DNA of 64,000 nt from Xanthostigma xanthostigma (taxonomy: Eukaryota > Arthropoda > Insecta > Raphidioptera > Raphidiidae). Below, piece by piece: positions 3,314-53,807 of the stretch (position 1 is the stretch's first letter; each line of letters begins with the position of its first letter). Both the position numbers and the translations under genes were made by a program. The stretch covers positions 19,942,001-20,006,000 of the forward strand of contig OY754466.1 in the NCBI GenBank assembly GCA_963575645.1, in the 5' to 3' direction. The notes under the pieces were generated by a model. It was not told where the DNA came from. It searched no databases and worked only from the letters and a program-made list of their open reading frames with translations.

Positions 3314-3661
<348 letters not shown>

Positions 3662-4316: not shown

Positions 4317-4962
4317 TAAATCAATTAATGTATAGTCATGGCTCATTTTGTTCCAATGCTAAATTCCGTATGTACACCTTTACCGGTTTACTTCTGTATT
4401 GAGATTTTATCTGGAGGCGAAGCCCATTTCAAAATACTCAATATATATTACATTGACAGTACCTATACGGGGTTTCGATGTTTTATTTAAAATGTGTATT
4501 TCCGAGGACGAAATTTGTCGCTGGGGTTATAATTAATCCCTCAAACGTATTTATATTAAAGAGAAACAATTGCGACTTTGGTCACATCTTAAAATGTGGC
4601 AGAATCATTGATGTTCGCTCTAATGATAAGGTTAACTTCGTTGCTTTCTGCATGCAAACGTCAAATTTAAAAGAAAAATCGCATGAAAATAGCGGTGTAT
4701 AATCAATTGATAGCTGTCACTTTTCAATTTAATAATTTATTCTCAACATTTACACTTGATTCATTGACACAATTAGGTACTGCACAACACTTCATGCTTC
4801 TTCTTCGATTTTTAAAATGACGTATGTAGCTTCCACAATTATAAACATTTACAAAAATACGTAGCGCGCAATGCTTTACTATATGAGACGCTTCGCATAG
4901 GATATTTCATTGATGTGCTGAGGAGATGGCGCATAGTTGAAGTAAAATTCCAATAGATTATG
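4317..4962. other. Intronic sequence of gene B, no feature recognised
   Basis: About 650 AT-rich bases lie between the pogo-like element and the DUF7869-type element. No convincing coding, repeat or RNA signal was found. Confidence 0.4.
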
Positions 4963-5577
4963 AATTCTGTGGTCAAGAGGCAAACGGGCTTAAGTCGATT
5001 TTTTGGAAATTTACTTTTTTATATTAGTATATGTAATTTTTGATACTCTTTCTACTGTAAAAAGGGCTAAAGTGTAGCTGTTTTCTTGTAAAATTGATGT
5101 AGGTATGCCAAAAGGCTTAAGTCAGAAGTGATTCAAATAGCAACTGGAAAAAGGTACTATGTCAAATAAGATTTAAAGTCACATTTAAATTTAATAAAAT
5201 AAGATCATAAGTGTACATAGGCTGTTTTGTCCGTTAAACTATTTCTTTTTTTAAAGAAATAATTATAGTTACAAAGAAGCCTATGTCGATCTGATATACT
5301 GTTGGCTGTTTCTACTTTACAAATTGTACGGTTTTAAGTGTACATAAGTCCGTTTACCATTCTTCTCTTTGGAAGTGACTGTATTTAAAACATATATAAG
5401 CCTCTTTTCTGTTTCGATACATTTTAAATTAACGTACTAATGTCGAATTTAGTACCTTTTTCCTGATGCAATATCTGTTATGTTAATCAGTGAGCGAGTA
5501 ACAGAAAAGGGCTGTTTGTGAATAACTACAGTTTATTTGTGATATATTTGAACTTATTTGTGTATTATTGTGAAACA

Positions 5578-5641
5578 ATGAGTCGGGCCAGGAAAATGCT
5601 GGAAATGGTTGATCGTGGGAATTCTGAACCGGAACCTTCAG
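5578..5641 (+). CDS. DUF7869-like gene, exon 1
   Basis: Exon 1 starts at the ATG at 5578 and encodes MSRARKMLEMVDRGNSEPEPS plus the first base of a Gly codon, before a GTAATA donor at 5642. The phase matches the acceptor at 11073-11074. This gives an in-frame junction Ser-Gly-Ser-Thr-Asn-Glu that extends the downstream reading frame at its N-terminus. I chose this start because it is the first ATG after the AT-rich leader and is preceded by ACA (acaATG). Its existence explains why no ATG opens the large downstream frame at the expected place. Confidence 0.7.
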
Positions 5642-5756
5642 GTAATAATAAATAATATTAATAACCAGTGGGAGTATATGCCCAAGTAATTCAAGAATTA
5701 CAAGGCGCGAAATTTTACATCATATACCCTGGTGTTTTGTTTGAAAATTGGTGTAT

Positions 5757-5976
5757 ATTTATCGTTCAGCCCGGATTTTTTTTTTTTTTTAAACTCCACA
5801 TTTGCCGCTTCCCGTTTCACTGAGAGACAATTCGCATACCCCTTTATCGTTCACCCCGGAATTACAATTCGCATACCCGTTTATCGTTAACCCCGAAATT
5901 ATTTTTTTAAAAACTCCACCTCTGCCCCATCGCGTTTCACTGCGAGACAATTCGCATACCCCTTTATCAAAAAAAG
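5757..5976. repeat. Two degenerate copies of a ~120-bp unit leading into the satellite
   Basis: A block with 'tttatcgtt', 'aactccac' and 'aattcgcatacccctttatc' occurs twice, with about 120 bases between corresponding motifs (5829 and 5948). The period equals that of the adjacent satellite although the sequence is different. Confidence 0.55.
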
Positions 5977-8900
5977 CTTAGTCCGCCATATTAGATTTAG
6001 GATGACGTCACTTTATTTTTCGAGTTATTCTCAGCAAGCCCTTTCATTTGATACTTATATTGTAGGAAAACATAATAAACTTAGTCCGCCATCTTTAGAA
6101 ATCCGCCATATTGGATTTAGAGTGATGTCACTTTATTTTTCGAGGTATTTTCAGCAAGCCCTTTCATTTGATACCCATATTGTAGGAAAGCAAAATAAAA
6201 TTAGTCCGCCATTTTAGAAGTCCGCCACATTGGATTTAGAGTGACGTCACTTTATTTTTCGAGTTATTCTCAGCAAGCCCTTTCATTTGATACCCATATT
6301 GTAGGAAAGCATAATAAAATTAGTCTGCCATCTTTAGAAGTCCGCCATATTGGATTTAGAATGACCTCACTTTATTTTTCGAGTTATTTACAGCAAGCCC
6401 TTTCATTTGATACCCATATTGTAGGAAAGCATAAAAAACTTAGTCCGCCATCTTTAGAATTTCGTCATATTGGTTTTAGAGTGACGTCACTTTATTTTTC
6501 GAGTTATTCTCAGCAAGCCCTTTCATTTGATACTTATATTGTAGGAAAGCATAATAAACTTAGTCCGCCATCTTTAGAAATCCGCCATATTGGATTTAGA
6601 GTGATGTCACTTTATTTTTCGAGGTATTTTCAGCAAGCCCTTTCATTTGATACCCATATTGTAGGAAAGCAAAATAAAATTAGTCCGCCATTTTAGAAGT
6701 CCGCCATATTGGATTTAGAGTGACGTCACTTTATTTTTTGAGTTATTCTCAGCAAGCCCTTTCATTTGATACCCATATTGTAGGAAAGCATAAAAAACTT
6801 AGTCCACCATCATTAGAAATCCGCCATATTAGATTTAGACTGACGTCACTTTATTTTTCGAGTTACTCTCAGCAAGCCCATTTGATACCCATATTGTAGG
6901 AAAGCATAATAAACTTAGTCCGCCATCTTTAGAAGTCCGCCATATTGGATTTAGAGTGATGTCACTTTATTTTTCGAGTTATTCTCAGCAAGCCCTTTCA
7001 TTTGATACCCATATTGTAGGAAAGCAGAATAAAATTAGTCCGCCATTTTTAGGAGGCCAGCTATATTGGATTTAAAGTAACGTCACTTTATTTTTCGAGT
7101 TATTCTCAGCAAGCCCTTTCATTTGATACCCATATTGTAGGAAAGCATAATAAAATTAACCGCCATTTTTAGAAATCCGCCATATTGGATTTAGAGTACG
7201 TCACTTTATTTTTCGACTTATTTTCAGCAAGCCCTTTCATTTGATACCTATATTGTAGGAAAGCATAAAAAACTTAGTCTGCCATCTTTAGAAGTAGGTA
7301 CGCCATGTTGGATTCAGAGTTACGTCACTTTATTTTTCGAGTTATTCTCAGCAAGCCCTTTCATTTGATACCCATATTGTAGGAAAGCATAATAAAATTA
7401 GTACGCCATTTTTAGAAGTCCGCCATATTGGATTTAGAGTGACGTCACTTTATTTTTCGAGTTATTCTCAGCAAGCCTTTTCATTTGATACCCATATTGT
7501 AGGAAAGCATAATAAACTTGGTCCGCCATCTTTAGAAGTCAGCCATATTGGATTTAGAGTGACCTCACTTTATTTTTCGAGTTATTTACAGCAAGCCCTT
7601 TCATTTGATACCCATATTGTAGGAAAGCATAAAAAACTTAGTTCGCCATTTTTAGAAGTCCGCCATATTGGATTTAGAGTAACGTCACTTTATTTTTCGA
7701 GTTATTCTCAGCAAGCCCTTTCATTTGATACCCATATTGTAGGAAAGCATAATAAACTTCGTCCGCCATCTTTAGAAGTCCGCCATATTGGATTTAGAGT
7801 GACCTCACTTTATTTTTCGAGTTATTTACAGCAAGCCCTTTCATTTGATACCCATATTGTAGGAAAGCATAAAAAACTTAGTCCGCCATCTTTAGAATTT
7901 CGCCATATTGGTTTTAGAGTGACGTCACTTTATTTTTCGAGTTATTCTCAGCAAGCCCTTTCATTTGATACCCATATTGTAGGAAAACATAAAAAACTTA
8001 ATCCGCCATTTTTAGAAGTCCGCCATATTGGATTTAGAGTAACGTCACTTTATTTTTCGAGTTATTCTCAGCAAGCCCTTTCATTTGATACCCATATTGT
8101 AGGAAAGCATAATAAAATTAGTACGCCATTTTTAGAAGTCCGCCATATTGGATTTAGAGTGACGTCACTTTATTTTTCGAGTTATTCTCAGCAAGCCCTT
8201 TCATTTGATACCCATATTGTAGGAAAGCATAATAAACTTGGTCCGCCATCTTTAGAAGTCAGCCATATTGGATTTAGAGTGACCTCACTTTATTTTTCGA
8301 GTTATTTACAGCAAGCCCTTTCATTTGATACCCATATTGTAGGAAAGCATAAAAAACTTAGTCCGCCATCTTTAGAATTTCGCCATATTGGTTTTAGAGT
8401 GACGTCACTTTATTTTTCGAGTTATTCTCAGCAAGCCCTTTCATTTGATACCCATATTGTAGGAAAACATAAAAAACTTAGTCCGCCATTTTTAGAAGTC
8501 CGCCATATTGGATTTAGAGTAACGTCACTTTATTTTTCGAGTTATTCTCAGCAAGCCCTTTCATTTGATACCCATATTGTAGGAAAGCATAATAAAATTA
8601 GTACGCCATTTTTAGAAGTCCGCCATATTGGATTTAGAGTGACGTCACTTTATTTTTCGAGTTATTCTCAGCAAGCCCTTTCATTTGATACCCATATTGT
8701 AGGAAAGCATAATAAACTTGGTCCGCCATCTTTAGAAGTCAGCCATATTGGATTTAGAGTGACCTCACTTTATTTTTCGAGTTATTTACAGCAAGCCCTT
8801 TCATTTGATACCCATATTGTAGGAAAGCATAAAAAACTTAGTTCGCCATTTTTAGAAGTCCGCCATATTGGATTTAGAGTAACGTCACTTTATTTTTCGA

Positions 8901-9849
8901 GTTATTCTCAGCAAGCCCTTTCATTTGATACCCATATTGTAGGAAAGCATAATAAACTTCGTCCGCCATCTTTAGAAGTCCGCCATATTGGATTTAGAGT
9001 GACCTCACTTTATTTTTCGAGTTATTTACAGCAAGCCCTTTCATTTGATACCCATATTGTAGGAAAGCATAAAAAACTTAGTCCGCCATCTTTAGAATTT
9101 CGCCATATTGGTTTTAGAGTGACGTCACTTTATTTTTCGAGTTATTCTCAGCAAGCCCTTTCATTTGATACCCATATTGTAGGAAAACATAAAAAACTTA
9201 GTCCGCCATTTTTAGAAGTCCGCCATATTGGATTTAGAGTAACGTCACTTTATTTTTCGAGTTATTCTCAGCAAGCCCTTTCATTTGATACCCATATTGT
9301 AGGAAAGCATAATAATATTAGTCCGCCATCTTTAGAAGTCCGCCATATTGGATTTCAGTGACGTCACTTTATTTTTCGAGTTATTTACAGCAAGCCCTTT
9401 TATTTGATACCCATATTGTAGGAAAGCATAATAAAATTAGTCCGCCATCTTTAGAAGTCCGCCATATTGGATTTAGAGTGACGTCACTTTATGTTTCGAG
9501 TTATTAACAGCAAGCCCTTTCATTTGATACCCATATTGTAGGAAAGCATAAAAAACTTAGTCCGCCATCATTAGAAGTCTGCCATATTGGATTTAGAGTA
9601 ACGTCACTTTATTTTTCGAGTTATTCTCAGCAAGCCCTTTCATTTGATACCCATATTGTAGGAAAGCATAATAAAATTAGTACGCCATTTTTAGAAGTCC
9701 GCCATATTGGATTTAGAGTGACGTCACTTTAATTTTCGAGTTATTCTCAGCAAGCCCTTTCATTTGATACCCATATTGTAGGAAAGCATAATAAAATTAG
9801 TCCGTCATATTTAGAAGTTCGCCATATTGGATTTAGAGTGACGTCACAT
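5977..9849 (+). repeat. Satellite array, 120-bp monomer, about 32 copies
   Basis: Monomers run cgtcactttatttttcgag ... agcaagccctttcatttga ... cgccatattggatttagag. The period is exactly 120 bp from 7440 to 9350, with a few single-base indels near both ends. Most monomers contain TGACGTCA or a one-base variant (TGACCTCA, TAACGTCA, TGATGTCA). Because 120 is 40 codons, frames without stops run through the array, but the translation is a by-product. The array lies entirely within the intron of the DUF7869-like gene. A higher-order pattern of six monomer variants is visible from 7440. Confidence 0.97.
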
Positions 9850-10139
9850 AGCTAACCATGCATTGTTATCCAAACTTAACGTGTATACAAATTTTCATCT
9901 CAATCGGTTGAAGATATTTGCTTCAAAATTACCGAAGGCATTCTTGTCGCTCACTTAGTAATTCAGTCGCTCACTTAGTAATTTAGTCGCTCACTTATTA
10001 ATTTAGTCACACAACTGTTATTTTAATATTCAAGTTATTAAAACAGTATCTCATCACCAAGTTTTTTTTTTATTCGACCGTTTGATAATTCCCCAATTAT
10101 TATTATATAAAACAACATTATAAGAGGTATATTCTTTTA
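9850..10139 (+). repeat. Satellite flank with a short 23-bp tandem repeat
   Basis: After the last CRE-like palindrome the sequence changes to a dispersed-repeat type (ttttcatctcaatcggttga). It then carries three copies of cgctcacttagtaatt with a period of about 23 bases at 9949-10015. Confidence 0.6.
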
Positions 10140-10890
10140 CGCATGCGCCGATGTTCCCAAAAAACAATAGGCCACTTCATATTTGCATATCAAACATCCT
10201 CCCAAAATTTGGTTTCAATCCGCTCGTCCGTGGTGTCGGAATAGTAAGAAATGTCAAAAGTGACGTTTGCATCTGTCACAGTATTATGTTCTAATAATTA
10301 GTTATTCAAATTGTTAACCCAGAAGGCGTTGCATTTTACAAATATTCGAAACGGCATCCGTTTTTGAACAAATGCTATCTTTTAATTTCATTATTGTAAT
10401 AAATAATATTATCGACCAATTTTATTTGAAATACAGAACATACGTAATTTTTAAATTGCCATGTTAAACCGTGCAACAGAGAGAGATAACCGAAAGATGT
10501 TTGCCATCGGTTATATCAGATTGAATTTATTTCTATATAAATGTGTATAAAAAAACTGATTGGGCAAATTCTGTTGTACGAAATTTATGTAAAATTTTCT
10601 CCTCTTTCGTTTAAGACAGGTTTCGAACCGATCTGATTTAAATTGAGCGAGTTATAAGCGAAAAACTTCGTTTTTTCTAAATTGCTCCCCTCTGGAGCAA
10701 AAATTCAAAAATCGGGCGACGTTAGGATCTAAGTTACCCGGAGACGAATCGAACAAAAAAAAGTTTTTTAAAATCGGTTAAGGCGTTTGAGCTGTACACA
10801 ATCCACAAAAAAGCGTGACATACAGATTCACAGATTCACAGATTCACAGACAAAGCGAGTACATATAGGCGCTTTAGCTTACGCTATTCG
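10140..10890. repeat. Dispersed repeat family Y (composite)
   Basis: The block starting cgcatgcgccgatgttccc recurs in diverged form at about 32755 and, reversed, at about 45030. Internal parts (cctctttcgtttaagac and gaccaagtttttttt-like stretches) match, in reverse, the interior of the family X copies at 28737-29407 and 39879-40448. An 8-bp tandem (cagattca, three copies) lies at about 10824-10850, just before gcgctttagcttacgctatt. No coding capacity was seen. Confidence 0.6.
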
Positions 10891-11074
10891 CGCCTAATAA
10901 TTACAATTTACATTAGTTTTAAATAATTTGCACTTAAGAACTTTAATTTAATAACAATCGTTTCGCCCTGCGACCCGAGTTTTTTAAATTAATGTTCTTA
11001 ATAAACTGTAAATTATTTAAAACTTTGTTTTCATTTTTTAAATCGCGTTTCGAATAATTATATTATTTTTCTAG

Positions 11075-13128
11075 GTAGCACCAATGAAAAAGTAAATACG
11101 CAATTCGTGGATGGGCAGATATTTAAAATATACGCTAACAACGAAACCGGTAGCAGTTTTGTGAATACTGAAATGTTTGATATTACAACCGTAAAAAATA
11201 TGTATGAAAATATTATTGACATTGAAATTGAAAACGAGCCATTTGATGACAGTGATGCTGATCCTAATTACCAGCCATCGGAATCAGATTTATCTGATGT
11301 TCAGGCGGTAGCAGAAGAAATAGAACGACGTCTTGAAGAAAATCACGAGTCGGAAATAGAAACTGATAATATAAAGGAAACTAGAGAAACTAGAAAGAGA
11401 AAACGTAATCAAGGTGAAGAATATAAAACGAAGAAAGGTAAAATTATAAAACCAAGAGTTTGTTCGCATTTAGAAGAATGCCGAAAACAGTGCAAGAATA
11501 AGATTAGTTTTGAACAGCAATCTGAAATTTTCCATAAGTATTGGGCCCTAGGCAATTACAATCTTAGAGTCGCATACATGGCTAGTTTAATTACAGTAAA
11601 TGACAAAAAAACTCAAAGACTGAACAAAAGTTCAACGGTCGTTAGAAATCGCCAATGGACGTACAATTATTTCTTGGAACTAAATGATTTTCAAAAAACT
11701 GATGTATGCCAAAAATGTTTTAAAAAAACATTTGGTGAGAGTGATAAATTTATAAAAACTGTTATAAGAAAAAAGATTGAGTCTCCTGGTGGGATTACTT
11801 CTCCTGATCAAAGAGGCAAGCATACACCTTCGAACATAATATCTCAAGAAAGACTGGCCCAAATAAAAGAACACATCTGTAGCTTTCCATCTTACGAAAG
11901 CCACTACACAAGAAGAGACACATCCAAAAAATATCTTTCCAGCGATTTAACATTATCTACAATGTATCAGTTATACCGTGAAAAATATGAAAATCCTGTT
12001 TCTATCAAAAAATATTCTGAAATATTTAAGAGTTTAAATCTTAAATTTAAATCACCGAAGGCTGACACATGTTATAAGTGCGATCTTTTTGCTTCAAAAT
12101 TAGCTGTAACAGAAGGTGATGAAAAAGAGAAAATAAAACAGGAAACAGAGGAGCACCAGAGGGAAGCAGATATGGCTTTTAAAAGAAAGGATGAGGACAA
12201 AGAAAAATCTCGTTCTGATAAATCTTCTGTGGTTTATACTTTCGACCTCCAACAGTGCCTGCCGACACCTTTTCTCCGCACATCAATTTCATTTTACAAA
12301 CGTCAGCTGTGGACTTTCAATTTGACTGTCCACGACTGTGTTTCCAATCAGCCATATTGCTATATGTGGCGTGAAGCTATTGGCGGGAGAGGCGGGAACC
12401 AGATTGCTTCATGTCTTTTTAAACATTTAAAAACTTTAACTGAAGACATAAAACATATTACTTTCTATAGTGATACATGCGGAGGACAAAACAAAAACTC
12501 TCACGTTGCTGTAATGTTTTTAGTATCCATGTATTCAAACGAAAATATTGACACCATTGACCACAAATTTCTTGTCTCCGGACATTCCCACATGGAGTGC
12601 GACGTCGACCATTCCGTGATTGAAAGAAAAAAAAGAAAGACCTCCATAAAAATACATCATCCCAGAGACTGGTACCAGTTCGTGAGGACAGCCGGAACAA
12701 AAAAGCAATTTGAGGTCATTGAAATGGATCAAAATAGCTTCTTAGATTTTGCATCTCTTTTAACAACTCATTTTATGTTCCGTAAGGTCGATCAAGAAGG
12801 CAACAAGTTTGTATGGCAAAAGGTGAAATGGTTACGTTATACTAAAGCTGATCTTGGTATTATTATGTACAAAAATTCTCTTAGCGACGATGAGCCATTT
12901 AAGAAATTAAATTTAAAACGACGAGGGGTAAGCAACAAAAATATAGAAACTCAAATTAAAAAATGCTATTCTGGTTCAATTCCCATATCTACAGAAAAAA
13001 AGCGCGACTTGATTTCAGTTCTGCCATTAATTAGTGAAGAATTTCACCAGTTCTATCAAAATTTAATTACGTCAAATATGCCGAACAATCATCCTGATTT
13101 GACACAAGAAACCGATGACGAAGATTAA
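11075..13128 (+). CDS. DUF7869-like transposon-associated protein, exon 2
   Basis: With exon 1 (5578-5641) this gives 705 residues. The N-terminal 130 residues are acidic and low-complexity, followed by a basic stretch (KETRETRKRKR). Cysteine pairs that may bind zinc follow: CSHLEEC near 151, CQKC near 233, CYKC near 354. Next comes a core with FDLQQ (Asp about 412), YSDTCGGQNKN (Asp about 488) and GHSHMECDVDHS (about 525-535). From memory, the SDxCxGQNKN and GHxHxxxD signatures characterise DUF7869, found in many arthropod and plant proteins of unknown function. The spaced acidic residues resemble an RNase H-like (DDE) transposase fold, which is inference. The stop TAA is followed by AATAAA at 13250. 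The frame is intact, so the element may be recent or under selection. Confidence 0.8.
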
Positions 13129-13249
13129 TAACTTGCATCATATAAAAATGTTTATTTTTTTCCCTTTTATTTCTATCTTTTTTATGAAGAATTTTTAATT
13201 TTTTATTATACAAGTGTGTTGATTATAAAATAAGTTGTTTTTTTTCGCA

Positions 13250-13255
13250 AATAAA
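13250..13255 (+). terminator. Polyadenylation signal of the DUF7869-like gene
   Basis: AATAAA lies 121 bases after the stop codon, in an AT-rich 3' flank, on the coding strand and inside the right inverted terminus of the element. Confidence 0.6.
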
Positions 13256-13694
13256 GTTTTGCTAAAATGGCTTATATATACTTGCATTCATTTTAATTAT
13301 AACAATCAAATTAGTAAATAGACTTATGTTGTGTTAGGTTTGTTTTTTTCAGTAACTTAATATTTGAAGACAGGCTTAAGTCACTTTTTTAAATTTTCTC
13401 TGCACAATATTGCACTTAGGTTAACAAAAACCAGTAAAAATGTTGCCTTTTGTGTGGTTCGTCACACGTTATAAATATTATGCAGCAATTTTTAACGACT
13501 GATTTTCTGTTAATGTTTAAATCTTAAATTGGCCATATTGAAAAACATATAAAATTGACATAAGTCTCTTTGCCTTTTGACCACAGAATTAGGGTGACAT
13601 ATTATTATTTTAAAATAAACTCATACAATTTTCACGCCAGATACCTTCAATAATGGTTGCAAGTTGGAATCATATTACAAATGTAAGTTCCTAC

Positions 13695-15143
13695 CTGTGT
13701 GAACTCTCTTATGTTTCATTAGAGTTGAATGTTGATGGAAACTGGCATTGCAGACGTCGCAGACATACGGTCGAATGCCCAAATGAATTCGCATGTGCAT
13801 GACGAGCTCCGATTTCGTAGCGAAACCATTGCCGCATACGCTACAAATGTGAGCTTTTATACCTGAAAACAAAAGTTAACGTTATTATTACAGTTCTGAA
13901 ACCGTTGATCTGAGCACAGAATTCACTGTTCTAAAAACATTTGTCCAGTAGACAGAGTGCACAGACTAGAAGCACTAACTTATAATTACTGTTAACTCTA
14001 ATAAAATTTTGATACTATATGTATTCTTAATAATATTACCTGAATGTCTTATCATATGTCGTTGAAGATTTCCGACTTGATTAAAACCTTTACCGCAAGT
14101 GGAGCACAAATACGGTGTTTCATTGTTGTGTGTTCGTAAGTGGTTTTTTAAATTACTCAATTGCTTAAATGTTTTTGTACAAATATCACATTTAAGTGTA
14201 ACAGTCTCTTCCACGTGAGTTGACAAATGTTTCTCTAACTGTTCTTTTCTAAAATAGCTTTTATCGCACTTTTCACACATATATTTTTTTAATATATCAC
14301 CGTGCGTTTTTAAATGTGTCCATAAATGACGAGACTTTAAAAACTCCTGATTGCATATTTCACAGAACAGCGACTTCAAAGATTTTCTACATGTTTCAAG
14401 ACCAAACGTATGATCTGATTCATCTCCGGATATATTTGTTTCATTTTCCACAAAATCATTGGAATTACTCTCATTGTTATCTTCTTTCAAGGCTATTTTG
14501 TGTACTCTTTGATGCCTTTTTAAACCGATTTCTTTGAGGAACGCTTTATTACATTCTGTACATTCAAAGGAACGCTTAGGAACATGTTTTTTCATATGTT
14601 TCTTCAAATGAAAAGCTTTAATAAATAATTTACTACAAACGTTGCATGAAAATTCTTCTTTAATTTCGCAACCATTTTTAGTTTTCAGGTCGGATTTTTC
14701 TTTTCGAAGTGTTATGTCAGTGTTTTCTATGTTCATATCAATCTCAGATTTAATATATACATTGTCGGATAAGTTACATTCAAGTTTTGGCAAGAGTAAT
14801 TTATTTTGTAATCGTAGCATTGAATCTGAATTTTCACATTTAATCTTAAAATCGTAAAAATTATTGATTTGATTCGCGCATTCAAAACAAACTTCATCTG
14901 GAAGGCCATCATTAAATGATATCTATAAAATTATTATACACAAATGAAAACGATGAATCCGATTATTACATTTGGCAGCTGTCAAATTTGAAAACAATTT
15001 ACCTGCACTGAAGTACATGCCATTAATTTTTCCGACAATTTATTGTCAGAATTGTTTGCTTTTTCGCTATTAAATGAACTATATATTGAACACATGTTGA
15101 TATTTTCCGATAAACAAGTACGACAGGCGTTTTTGGCAGACAT
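13695..15143 (-). CDS. ZAD-C2H2 zinc-finger gene B, exons 1-3
   Basis: Exons are complement(13695..13862), (14040..14922) and (15003..15143); with exon 4 at 3314-3624 the protein has 500 residues. The ZAD ligands are CRTC at residues 7-10 and CFEC at about 59-62, separated by intron 1 at the same position as in gene A. Eleven C2H2 fingers follow in total, eight of them in these exons. Junctions RHS/GIKAH and RVHT/GEKPY fall in linker positions and keep phase. The protein is a likely nuclear DNA-binding factor with unknown target. Introns 1 and 2 are short (80 and 177 bp); intron 3 is 10,070 bp because a transposon with a satellite sits in it. Gene B is a diverged tandem paralogue of gene A. 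Confidence 0.88.
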
Positions 15144-28736: not shown

Positions 28737-29407
28737 TTTTGACGTGATAACGTCTTATAAATTGATGAATCACCAATCTTATAAATTGATAAAACACCGG
28801 CTGCATGTTCGAAAAAGTGTAACGTAACGTTCCTAACGCGTAACGTTCCGCCTGACCCTGTGCGTGCTTTTTGCTAATTTCTCGCTCAATTTAAATTAGA
28901 TCGGTTTGAAACCAGTCTTAAACGAAAGAGGAGAACATTTTACATAGATTTCGTATAACAGAATTTGCCTAAACAGTTTTTTTATACAAATTTATATAGA
29001 AAAATATTTTATACAAATTTATATAGAAAAATAGCTGTATAAATGCAATGTTGTGTAATGCATGGCGCGACGCGGTCGGTTGTCTTTGTTTGCCGTACAT
29101 GGAAATTAGAAGCAAACGTATGTCTTGTCTTAACATGAAAACAGCTGCATTTCTAATGTTTAATTCAATTTTTTGACATTAGTATATTGTGAAATGCAAA
29201 GCCTTCTAAGTTAAGTATTGGAATAACTAATTATTATTAGAACATAATACTTTGTAAGTTGCAAACGTCACTTTTGACATTTCTTATCATTCCGACACCA
29301 AGGATAAGCGGATTGAAGCCAAATTTTGGGAGGTTTAGGTTATGTATTACGGAATACGTTATCACGTAAAACTATCGTCCGTAAACCGACTTTACAGACA
29401 ACCAATT
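28737..29407 (-). mobile_element. Family X element, long copy
   Basis: A reversed 671-bp copy with the same ends as 24556-24746. Its extra interior is shared with 39879-40448 and partly with 10140-10890. No coding region. The interior could be captured sequence or the ancestral, less deleted form. Confidence 0.75.
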
Positions 29408-39878: not shown

Positions 39879-40448
39879 TTTTGACGTGATAACGTCTTAT
39901 AAATTGATGAATCACCAATCTTATAAATTGATAAAACACCGGCTGCATGTTCGAAAAAGTGTAACGTTCGTAACGCGTAACGTTCCTAACGCGTAACGTT
40001 CCGCCTGACCCTGTGCGTGCTTTTTGCTAATTTCTCGCTCAATTTAAATCAGATCGGTTTGAAACCAGTCTTAAACGAAAGAGGAGAACATTTTACATAG
40101 ATTTCGTATAACAGAATTTGCCTAAACAGTTTTTTTATACAAATTTATATAGAAAAATAGCTGTATAAATGCAACATGAAAACGGCTGAATTTCTAATGT
40201 TTAATTCAATTTTTTGACATTAGTATTTTGTGAAATGCAACGCCTTCTAAGTTAAGTATTGGAATAACTAATTATTATTAGAACATAATACTTTGACAGT
40301 TGCAAACGTCACTTTTGACATTTCTTATCATTCCGACACCAAGGATAAGCGGATTGAAACCAAATTTTGGGAGGTTTAGGTTATGTATTACGGAATACGT
40401 TATCACGTAAAACTATCGTCCGTAAACCGATTTTACAGACAACCAATT
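39879..40448 (-). mobile_element. Family X element, long copy
   Basis: A reversed 570-bp sister of 28737-29407 with the same termini and interior. It has about 100 fewer bases, including absence of a segment corresponding to 29040-29130, and a duplicated 'aacgcgtaacgttcct' motif. Confidence 0.75.
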
Positions 40449-46254: not shown

Positions 46255-46959
46255 TTACAGGATGTTGGAGACCACTTGTTTCCATTTTATTCTGTCCATA
46301 GCCAGTGATTTTAAGTCATTAAATGTGCTAATATTTAGCCAGTTTTTAATATTAGAGATCCAGGTAATTCTTTTTCTGCCTCTTGAAACACAACCTTTTA
46401 ATTTTCCACATAAAATAAGTCTTTGCAATTCATAGCTAGGCCCTCTACACATATGACCAAAATATCCCGTAATTCTTTTTTTTATTGTGTTCACTAAGCA
46501 CCGTTTATAATTAACTTTTTGGAAAACTACTTCATTTTTTAATTTTTCAGTCCATTTTATTTTTAGCATTTTTCTTATACACCAAGTTTCAAAAGCATTT
46601 AATCTAGATTCACTGACTCTCTTTAGCACCCATGTTTCGCAAGAATATAACAGTGCAGACCACACATATGTTTTTAGCATTTTAAATCTATTTTGAAAAC
46701 ACAGCTTCCTATTTGTCAAATATGTTTTGAGTTTTTCAAAATTAGCTTTAGCAATTGCGATTCGTTTCTTAATCTCGAGTAGCTGATCGTTGTTAGAAGT
46801 GAATAGTTTACCCAAATAATTATTTTGATTTACTTGCTTTATCTTTTGAGTTTTACACGTGATATTAATTAATGGTTGAACAGCTTCTTTACTAAAAACC
46901 ATACTCACAGTCTTTTTTGCATTTATTTTAAGTCCGTATTTTTCACTAACACTAGACAT
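46255..46959 (-). pseudogene. LINE reverse transcriptase C-terminal part, open 234-codon frame
   Basis: The frame shows KYGLKINAKKT, then NYLGKLFTSNND, EIKKRIAIAKANFEKL, LLYSCETWVLK and ETWCIRKMLKIKW. These are the thumb and post-RT tail motifs of non-LTR retrotransposon polymerases of the endonuclease-reverse transcriptase (RTE/Proto2-like) type. The catalytic FADD region and the endonuclease are absent because the copy is 5'-truncated at about 46965. On its coding strand it ends in an ATG-repeat tail (gatgatgatga) typical of RTE-like LINEs. It inserted into the Helitron at 46160 with ACT repeated at both edges. The frame is intact and suggests a recent insertion. It cannot act as a polymerase alone. 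Confidence 0.85.
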
Positions 46960-50371: not shown

Positions 50372-50989
50372 GCCGTTACCCACGGCTTCGCACGCGATTG
50401 AGACGAAACACGGATGCATTCCCATTATTTGACATAATTACTCCTTTCTCAACGTAGACCCCCCTAATAAATTTCAAAACTGATGACATTCACGTGATCA
50501 ACGTCCTGACGAACCTTGAAAACGACACCCATGTTGACTTTTAGACTATTTACTTCTTTTTACCCTCTGAAGGGGTTGTTTTTGAAAAAGCAGGAAACAC
50601 GTGTTAATTTGTTGACAGAAGTAACCATGCGCATTTTCAAATTGATACATCTATATCTATTTCTCCATGCAAGTTGTGAACCCCCGTTATACCCTTTTAG
50701 GGGTTAAATTTTCAAAAATCCGTTCTTAGCGGATGCTTACGTCATAATAACTATCTGTGTGCCAAATTTCAGCCCAATCCGTCCAGTGGTTTGAGCTTCG
50801 CGTTGATAGATCAGTCAGTCAGTCAGTCAATCTGTCAGTCGGTCAGTCAATCTGTCAGTCGGTCAGTCAACCTGTCAGTCAGTCAGTCAGTCAATCAGTT
50901 AGTCAGTCAATCAGTCAGTCAGTCAATTAGTCAGTCAATCAGTCAGTCAGTCACGGTTTCTTTTTATATATTTAGATTAATATAGATTA
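50369..50989 (-). mobile_element. Helitron-like element with TCAG tandem repeat
   Basis: CTAG at 50372-50369 is preceded on the minus strand by cgtgcgaagccgtgggtaac, a Helitron 3' hairpin-type end. The far end carries (TCAG)n. It is a reversed relative of 42545-43257. Confidence 0.65.
50810..50955 (+). repeat. (TCAG)n tandem repeat
   Basis: About 146 bases of cagtcagtcagtcaatcagt-type repeats with scattered AATC variants. Its translation (SVSQSV) is an artefact. Confidence 0.9.
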
Positions 50990-52470: not shown

Positions 52471-53807
52471 TTTTTTCACTCACTGCGGACGACATTTGCA
52501 TTAATTTAGAGAGAAAAATTATTTGCATCAGAGTTTTAATAATATTATGCAAAAAAATCAAAAACTGAAGCCTCAAAATCGAGGACTTTAATTTTGTTCT
52601 TACTACACTCTCTAAACTTGATATCAGTTATTTTTAAAATACCGTCGTAGTTTAGCCATTTTGTAAAAAATATTTACAAATCATATGAGTACACAAACCT
52701 TTTTCGTTTATCGCTCTTTCTATTAATGAAACAGAAAACCGCTTAAAAAATCCGGTACGTGGTTTAGAAGAAGTAAGCAGACAAAAAGCCAGAGGCTGAC
52801 AGCGACTCTGTTTATTACTATGTAGTCTTTGACAAAACACCGTTGTAGTTCAGCAATTTTGTAAAAAATATTTACAAATTATATACATACACCTTCCTCG
52901 TTTATTGCTCTTTCTATTAGTGAAAACCGTTTCAAAATCCGAAAGCTGTATGAAAATTTTCTGAGCTTTAATTTGGCATAAGAATTTTTCCCATGCGACG
53001 TACCATTTTTGAGGCCTAAGCTAAAACCCCAAAAGTGGTACCTTCTTGGTGCTCCCCTCCCTCCGGCTCACCTCCTAAACGTCAGGACTTTTGGTATGTT
53101 TACTCCCTAAGGACCCTGAACAAGTTTCTGAAGAAATCGCTTAGGGGCCTGCTCACGCACTCTACAACTTCTTTATTCACTGGACTATGATGACAGTGTG
53201 TAAAAATGAGCACTGTAACGACATCTGACGATGTAAAAAATGAAAAGTCAAAATGTATTTACAATTTCTGTAAATAGGGCTTTTTTAGTAAATCGTCCTC
53301 TCACGAATTAGGTGATACCTACCACCGATCGCCTTGATTAAGATATCTACATAAGAATTTGTCAGAGTTGCATGACACCTGTCACTTATGTTTTATTATT
53401 GATACCTATAACGCGGAAAAACTACGCAAAATTAAATAAATTCAGGGTCTGTCACCGTAAAGAATCTAATAAATATATAGGTACCTACTCTAGTTTGTGT
53501 GTAATTGATCAAGGTCAACATTTTAATTATGTAGATATTTAAAACCGCCTTTAGACCTTTACTACAGACTACAGTGCTTTAACCTTGATTTTAACATAGT
53601 TTTACTCTACAAGAATATAAATATATATTATATTATCTACTACCGTTATTTTATCCTTGCCTTTATTCATATGCGGTTACCACATCCCAAATTATAAATT
53701 ACATTTTTTGTATTTTTGAATCTGTAAAGTGTATACTGAAGAGGGTAAGGTGACTCTTAGAAAGAATTCTCGTCTGGCCCGAATTATTTTTTTGTAAAAA
53801 CCAAATA
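52471..53807. other. No gene recognised; a tandemly duplicated segment
   Basis: Two diverged copies of a block (gttgtagttcagcaattttg / gtcgtagtttagccattttg, then tatttacaaa and tcgctctttctattaatgaa) at about 52645-52745 and 52840-52935 indicate an old local duplication. No ORF was supported. Confidence 0.45.

Follow-up and report, generated by a model that had tools for sequence, protein, structure and literature searches.

Structure and Gene Content of the Element

The window (the whole 64,000-nucleotide stretch of DNA analyzed here; C3:19942001-20006000 in a searched genome of 623 Mb and 28 contigs) contains an intact, spliced gene that is enclosed by inverted termini. The element that carries this gene spans window positions 4967-13586 (8620 bp), and each end is bordered by an AATT target duplication. 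Features are given below with window coordinates, strand (a point where none applies), and the evidence for each in brackets.

4963..4966, strand., left target site duplication AATT (equal to the right flank; exact 4 bp in 7/7 two-ended copies)
4967..5002, strand +, left terminal inverted repeat, CTGTGGTCAAGAGGCAAACGGGCTTAAGTC... (inverted-pair search, tip pattern, copy comparison)
4987..4996, strand +, sub-terminal motif GGCTTAAGTC, also at 5114-5123 and 13373-13382 (≤1 mismatch)
5578..5641, strand +, coding exon 1, which starts MSRARKMLEMVDRGNSEPEPS (spliced-frame check)
5642..11074, strand +, intron (GT..AG; 200 bp in five of six other copies)
5665..10897, strand., nested insert in the intron, CCAGTGGG...GCGCCTAA (copy comparison; placement +/- up to 3 bp)
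5980..9847, strand., 120-bp satellite, 32.3 copies, within the nested insert (tandem-repeat search)
11075..13128, strand +, coding exon 2, DUF7869 protein, proposed transposase (frame list, Pfam, splicing)
12049..12762, strand +, predicted catalytic domain, RNase H-like, exon-2 protein residues 325-562 (AlphaFold2, structure search)
12244..12246, strand +, Asp412, strand 1, proposed first catalytic residue (26/26 proteins)
12472..12474, strand +, Asp488, just after strand 4, proposed second catalytic residue (26/26)
12601..12603, strand +, Asp531, helix after strand 5, proposed third catalytic residue (25/26)
12622-12624, strand +, Glu538, alternative third catalytic residue (24/26)
13551..13586, strand -, right terminal inverted repeat (inverted-pair search, copy comparison, 3'-end genome search)
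13587..13590, strand., right target site duplication AATT (copy comparison)

An earlier note on this DNA had described an intact two-exon gene of 705 residues with a SDTCGGQNKN core, spaced acidic residues (D412, D488, and D531/D533), and membership in DUF7869. Re-derivation of the frame returned the same gene, with a GT..AG intron, with D488 inside SDTCGGQNKN, and with all of the named acids present in the spliced frame. The Pfam model PF25273 reaches its cut-off with exon 2 (27.6 bits vs 26). If the satellite in the nested insert is set aside, the DUF7869 gene is the sole frame of at least 100 residues within the element.

Among 154 inverted pairs detected between positions 4700 and 13900, the longest (40 nt) joins 4963-5002 to 13551-13590 with 85% complementarity. 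The 34 of 40 matching bases reported earlier are therefore present, but the 14 identical tip bases reduce to 10, because the outermost AATT is the 4-bp target duplication; since AATT is a palindrome, it resembles part of the inverted repeat in the window. The element itself begins with the tip CTGTGGTCAA. An 18-bp tip pattern matched the window twice, at the two ends, as compared with a mean of 0.05 matches in 100 shuffles, one of which had two. The three matches to the sub-terminal motif all fall within the element, yet their number is not significant against a shuffle mean of 2.1.

The intron is 5.4 kb long in the window copy. Of the six other copies described below, five have an intron of 200 bp, and no splice acceptor was found in the sixth. 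The nested insert of ~5.2 kb, which sits at an A/T junction and has no clear target duplication at its borders, is found in none of the six sister copies and is a later arrival than the DUF7869 element. Its satellite-bearing sequence accounts for the greater length of the window copy. To judge from its letters, the end of the insert (GGCGC...GCGCC followed by TAA) recalls that of a Helitron.

Copies of the Element and Their Empty Sites

The earlier note had suggested a genome-wide search for further copies with the same termini, for empty sites, and for a target duplication of constant length. The 5' 101 bases of the element returned eight genome matches, all at 100% identity except for one at 92%, and the 3' 121 bases returned seven matches (99-100%) at the same seven loci as the full 5' matches. 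These seven two-ended copies, the window copy included, are distributed over contigs C2, C3 (two copies), C4, C7, C8, and C9, and all start with CTGTGGTCAA and finish with TTGACCACAG. The eighth 5' match, on C10 (L018), has a diverged 5' end and no matching 3' end within the 10 kb fetched. At the sensitivity of these end searches, no short non-autonomous copies were among the eight (5') and seven (3') places.

End-to-end comparison revealed an exact 4-bp duplication, and no longer repeat, at each of the seven copies. The duplicated sequence is AATT for the window, C9, and C7 copies, ATTT for C8, ATAT for C2 and for the C3 copy at 15.1 Mb, and ATAA for C4. Five copies are 3387-3391 bp in size and the C2 copy is 2922 bp. 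With the insert omitted, comparison with the window copy gave 0, 4, 9, 9, 11, and 37 mismatches for the six other copies, where the value of 37 belongs to the C2 copy over 2918 aligned bases. Whole-length matches to the exon-2 protein were identified in five copies, and four of these five are free of stop codons.

Empty sites were searched genome-wide for three of the seven copies (C7, C4, and the C3 copy at 15.1 Mb), and the other four were compared with the retrieved loci only. When the flanks of the C7 copy were joined across a single AATT, all 216 of 216 bases matched at two places, C12:22788352 and C8:35376355 (40 of 91 candidates scored), and these are perfect empty sites of the kind that the earlier note had called for. 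At least 32 further places matched over query positions 31-216 at 87-100% identity, with a few rows breaking elsewhere in the repeat, so that the C7 copy has as its target a repeat of which many copies are unoccupied. This copy (L013, C7:13593801-13603800) lies inside a high-copy repeat, and its two flanks carry mutual inverted repeats. The joined flanks of the C4 copy matched at least 38 other places at 75-86% identity, all spanning the junction, among 40 of 246 candidates scored; besides these 38, two scored rows were the copy's own flanks and one was a second piece. A stretch of the window itself (53199-53309) matches the joined C4 flanks at 77% and likewise spans the junction. For the C3 copy at 15.1 Mb, the genome-wide search returned its own flanks only and no empty site. 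The DUF7869 gene of the window resides in a recently moved DNA transposon.

Other Families of DUF7869 Elements

A protein search of the genome returned 721 candidate places, of which the best 65 were scored. From these, 42 were taken as loci (L019-L060; the last 12 picked mainly for open frames) and 23 were left out. The window family accounts for eight of the 42. Among the remaining 34 loci, which belong to other families, both ends were found at 19, and no end pair was found at 15 within the 1.2-1.5 kb of flank searched. Together with the seven copies of the window family these give 26 two-ended rows, which represent 25 independent insertions, as L046 and L047 have identical flanks and were counted once. 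For L028, L037, L039, and L040, the ends were placed by eye at the points beyond which near-identical copies no longer agree.

An exact 4-bp duplication was identified at 23 of the 25 independent insertions, in 12 families. The 23 duplications comprise ATAT (9), AATT (6), ATTT (3), ATAA (2), AAAT (1), ATCT (1), and GTTT (1), such that 19 fit AWWT and four (ATAA, ATCT, and GTTT) fall outside it. The two insertions that lack a matching duplication are L025 (AATT/ATAT) and L028 (ATAT/ATTA), and the length of the duplication at L045 is ambiguous because this locus sits in a TA repeat. A duplication of constant length, as the earlier note had anticipated, is therefore observed in all copies of the window family and in most insertions of the other families. 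The gene is also not confined to one single-copy locus in this genome, and relatives for which ends were found have termini of their own along with the same duplication length.

An automated finder of terminal inverted repeats passed 20 of the 42 loci. At L021 and L025 the pairs that it returned are inverted pairs other than the element ends, and at L045 the pair is shifted in the TA repeat. In a control with mismatched locus pairs, 15 of 400 passed; as we read them, 12 pair element ends from the same or a sister family and three do not.

Across families the tips are of three types, namely CTGTG, CG.., or GA... In a maximum-likelihood tree of 26 proteins, 13 of which are rows without an assigned tip, CTGTGG (3 rows), CG.. 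(6), and GA.. (4) each fall on one side of a branch, and equally low values were obtained in 2, 0, and 0 of 500 shuffles, respectively. The CTGTGTG tip of the L037 family, recognized after this test, belongs to a protein in the ten-row branch (support 93/92) that contains the CTGTGG rows. That tip type tracks the DUF7869 tree would be unexpected if an unrelated enzyme moved these elements.

Conservation and Predicted Fold of the DUF7869 Protein

An alignment was compiled from the window protein and the proteins of 26 of the 42 loci, which share 27-63% identity with it; 26 of these 27 proteins matched the DUF7869 model with E values of 1 or less. D412, D488, a CxxC pair (C354 and C357), and H525 are invariant across the 26 proteins that include the region. 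D531 is replaced by Asn in L049 only, and E538 is replaced in two proteins, by Asp and by Val. Among 14 pairs of sequences, dN was lower than dS in all eight near pairs, which differ by few changes, and dS was saturated in the other six.

AlphaFold2 modeled the full-length protein with a pLDDT of 77 and the domain with a pLDDT of 89.2 and a pTM of 0.86. In the domain model, strand 1, which bears D412 close to its end, precedes two further strands and a helix; next comes strand 4, with D488 immediately after it, and another helix then leads to strand 5 and to the helix that carries D531 and E538. Excerpts of PMC5718144 give the same order for the core of RNase H-like transposases. We therefore propose from the model that D412, D488, and D531 form a catalytic triad, with ambiguity as to whether D531 or E538 is the third acid.

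The whole-protein model had no Foldseek match at E 0.001 in the PDB or BFVD. With the domain model, two matches passed E 0.001 (best 6.4e-4), SIV and HIV integrase being at the top, and the predicted core resembles those of integrase and mariner transposase in the structure search. Close behind integrase were other RNase H-fold enzymes, i.e., NurA, herpesvirus terminase, RNase H, and Prp8, and the fold alone is therefore no proof of a transposase. The comparison with RNase H-like folds that the earlier note had recommended nevertheless yielded, in the predicted model, an integrase/transposase-like core with acids on strand 1, after strand 4, and on the next helix. Retroviral integrase shares this core (TM by target 0.44-0.60 in the top nine rows), but identity in the same rows is 10-13%, the third acid here is Asp rather than Glu, and the protein is encoded by a DNA transposon and has long extra N- and C-terminal parts.

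Outside the genome, no relative was identified in viral_contigs by protein, by motif pattern, or by alignment (32 stretches matched a pattern and none was confirmed), among phages and plasmids, or in NCBIfam, and the DUF7869 model matched none of 14 control genomes. Prokaryotic sequences gave three matches, at the level of the motif pattern only. The PDB held no relative by sequence (two unrelated matches, E 0.4 and 6.7), and the single match in PHROGs was weak (E 0.089) and has no known function. The name DUF7869 was absent from the open-licence literature searched; in the listed portions of that literature, CGGQNK/CGGQNR occurred only in the context of the H2A.Z nucleosome, and the other motif strings were absent.

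DUF7869 as the Probable Transposase

The copies, their duplications, the empty sites, and the predicted fold support the earlier suggestion of an autonomous element with a DUF7869 transposase. We consider it very probable that window positions 4967-13586 are an autonomous DNA transposon with terminal inverted repeats and that DUF7869 is its DDD RNase H-like transposase. The element ends, the 4-bp duplications, the agreement of tips and tree, and the predicted core with its triad collectively indicate that DUF7869 is most likely a DDD transposase. The protein would recognize the CTGTGGTCAA ends and, acting as a nuclease through D412, D488, and D531, would excise the element. Its insertion into an AT-rich site (mostly AWWT) cut with a 4-bp stagger would then yield the 4-bp duplication. 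Movement would probably be by cut-and-paste rather than copy-and-paste.

The gene might instead be a passenger in an element whose ends are recognized and moved by a transposase from elsewhere, and transposons do carry extra genes, such as the Fanzor genes in Sola2 elements described in parts of PMC3627910. We regard this as very improbable, given that no second frame of at least 100 residues exists in the element outside of the insert satellite, that DUF7869 recurs in 12 families with different tips whose type follows its phylogeny, and that its predicted fold is that of DDE/D enzymes. A host gene that came by chance to lie between inverted repeats would be consistent with the intact, spliced frame, but is scarcely credible for a gene present seven times across six contigs, each time within an exact duplication and in one case with perfect empty sites.

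With DUF7869 as the transposase, a Pfam "domain of unknown function" becomes a testable enzyme with ends, a target, and named (proposed) catalytic residues, and genes annotated as uncharacterized with DUF7869 could be re-read as mobile DNA. The near-identical copies, the open frames, and the perfect empty sites of one copy suggest that the window family may still be moving, and it is a natural candidate for a transposition assay.

Relationship to Known Transposon Superfamilies

Duplications of 4 bp are made by more than one superfamily. The target of piggyBac and Kolobok is TTAA, which is absent from the 23 duplications, and the tips of CMC elements (CACTA, Chapaev) are CAC, as opposed to the CTGTG, CG.., or GA.. 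observed here; neither group was retained. Tc1/mariner (Mos1, Metnase), for which excerpts of PMC10741241 give a 2-bp TA duplication, does not agree with the exact 4-bp duplications at 23 of 25 insertions, and no mariner model was among the Pfam matches of DUF7869 proteins.

By target, Sola2 is the closest known kind, as compared by description only. Sola2 elements of slime molds have 4-bp AT-rich AWWT duplications that include ATAT, AAAT, and ATTT, short imperfect inverted repeats, and a transposase of several hundred residues, according to excerpts of PMC3627910, and all of these are shared, by description only, with the elements studied here. Sola elements are further described, in parts of PMC10741241, as having a DDD transposase, 4-bp duplications, and very variable terminal sequences. 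We consider it somewhat more probable than not that the DUF7869 elements belong to Repbase Sola2 and that DUF7869 is the Pfam name of the Sola2 transposase, an assignment that would refine the preferred explanation of an element moved by its own DUF7869 protein. The 19 of 23 duplications that fit AWWT are consistent with it, as are the DDD triad (from predicted position and conservation) and the clade-dependent tips. Against it stand the four duplications outside AWWT (ATAA, ATCT, and GTTT), and the tips here are CTGTG, CG, or GA. The founding paper on Sola is reportedly that of Bao et al. in 2009.

The earlier note had proposed a candidate new group of DNA transposons. The transposon itself was borne out, and there is good support for a new family of DDE/D transposon, but novelty at the level of the group was not supported, given that target length and preference agree with Sola2 as compared by description only. 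We put forward only tentatively, and as a somewhat doubtful proposal, that DUF7869 elements constitute a eukaryotic DDD superfamily outside present classifications, with a CxxC pair directly before the catalytic core, tip clades of CTGTG, CG, and GA, and a shared 4-bp AT-rich target, and that the uncharacterized DUF7869 proteins in databases would be its transposases.

Genomic Surroundings

Contig C10, which makes up 6.6% of the genome, holds by our count 97 of the best 150 of 363 DUF7869 candidates and 79 of the best 119 of 311 piggyBac candidates. These matches are mostly within ~7.6 Mb (C10:8.7-16.3 Mb), a transposon-dense segment that, at a guess, is perhaps W-linked or heterochromatic. 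The idea that DUF7869 elements insert preferentially on C10 was set aside, given that piggyBac genes are equally concentrated there.

In the window, C2H2 zinc-finger motifs flank the element on the minus strand (3377-3607 and 13699-14646), and their presence on both sides suggests that a zinc-finger gene has the element in one of its introns and that the two run antisense to each other. Further along, a 234-residue frame on the minus strand (46255-46959) resembles, by eye, the end of a non-LTR reverse transcriptase, and positions 50811-50953 comprise 35.8 copies of a TCAG tandem repeat. A 24-bp tandem unit is shared by positions 28753-28798 and 39895-39940, 11 kb apart, which are perhaps two copies of one repeat.
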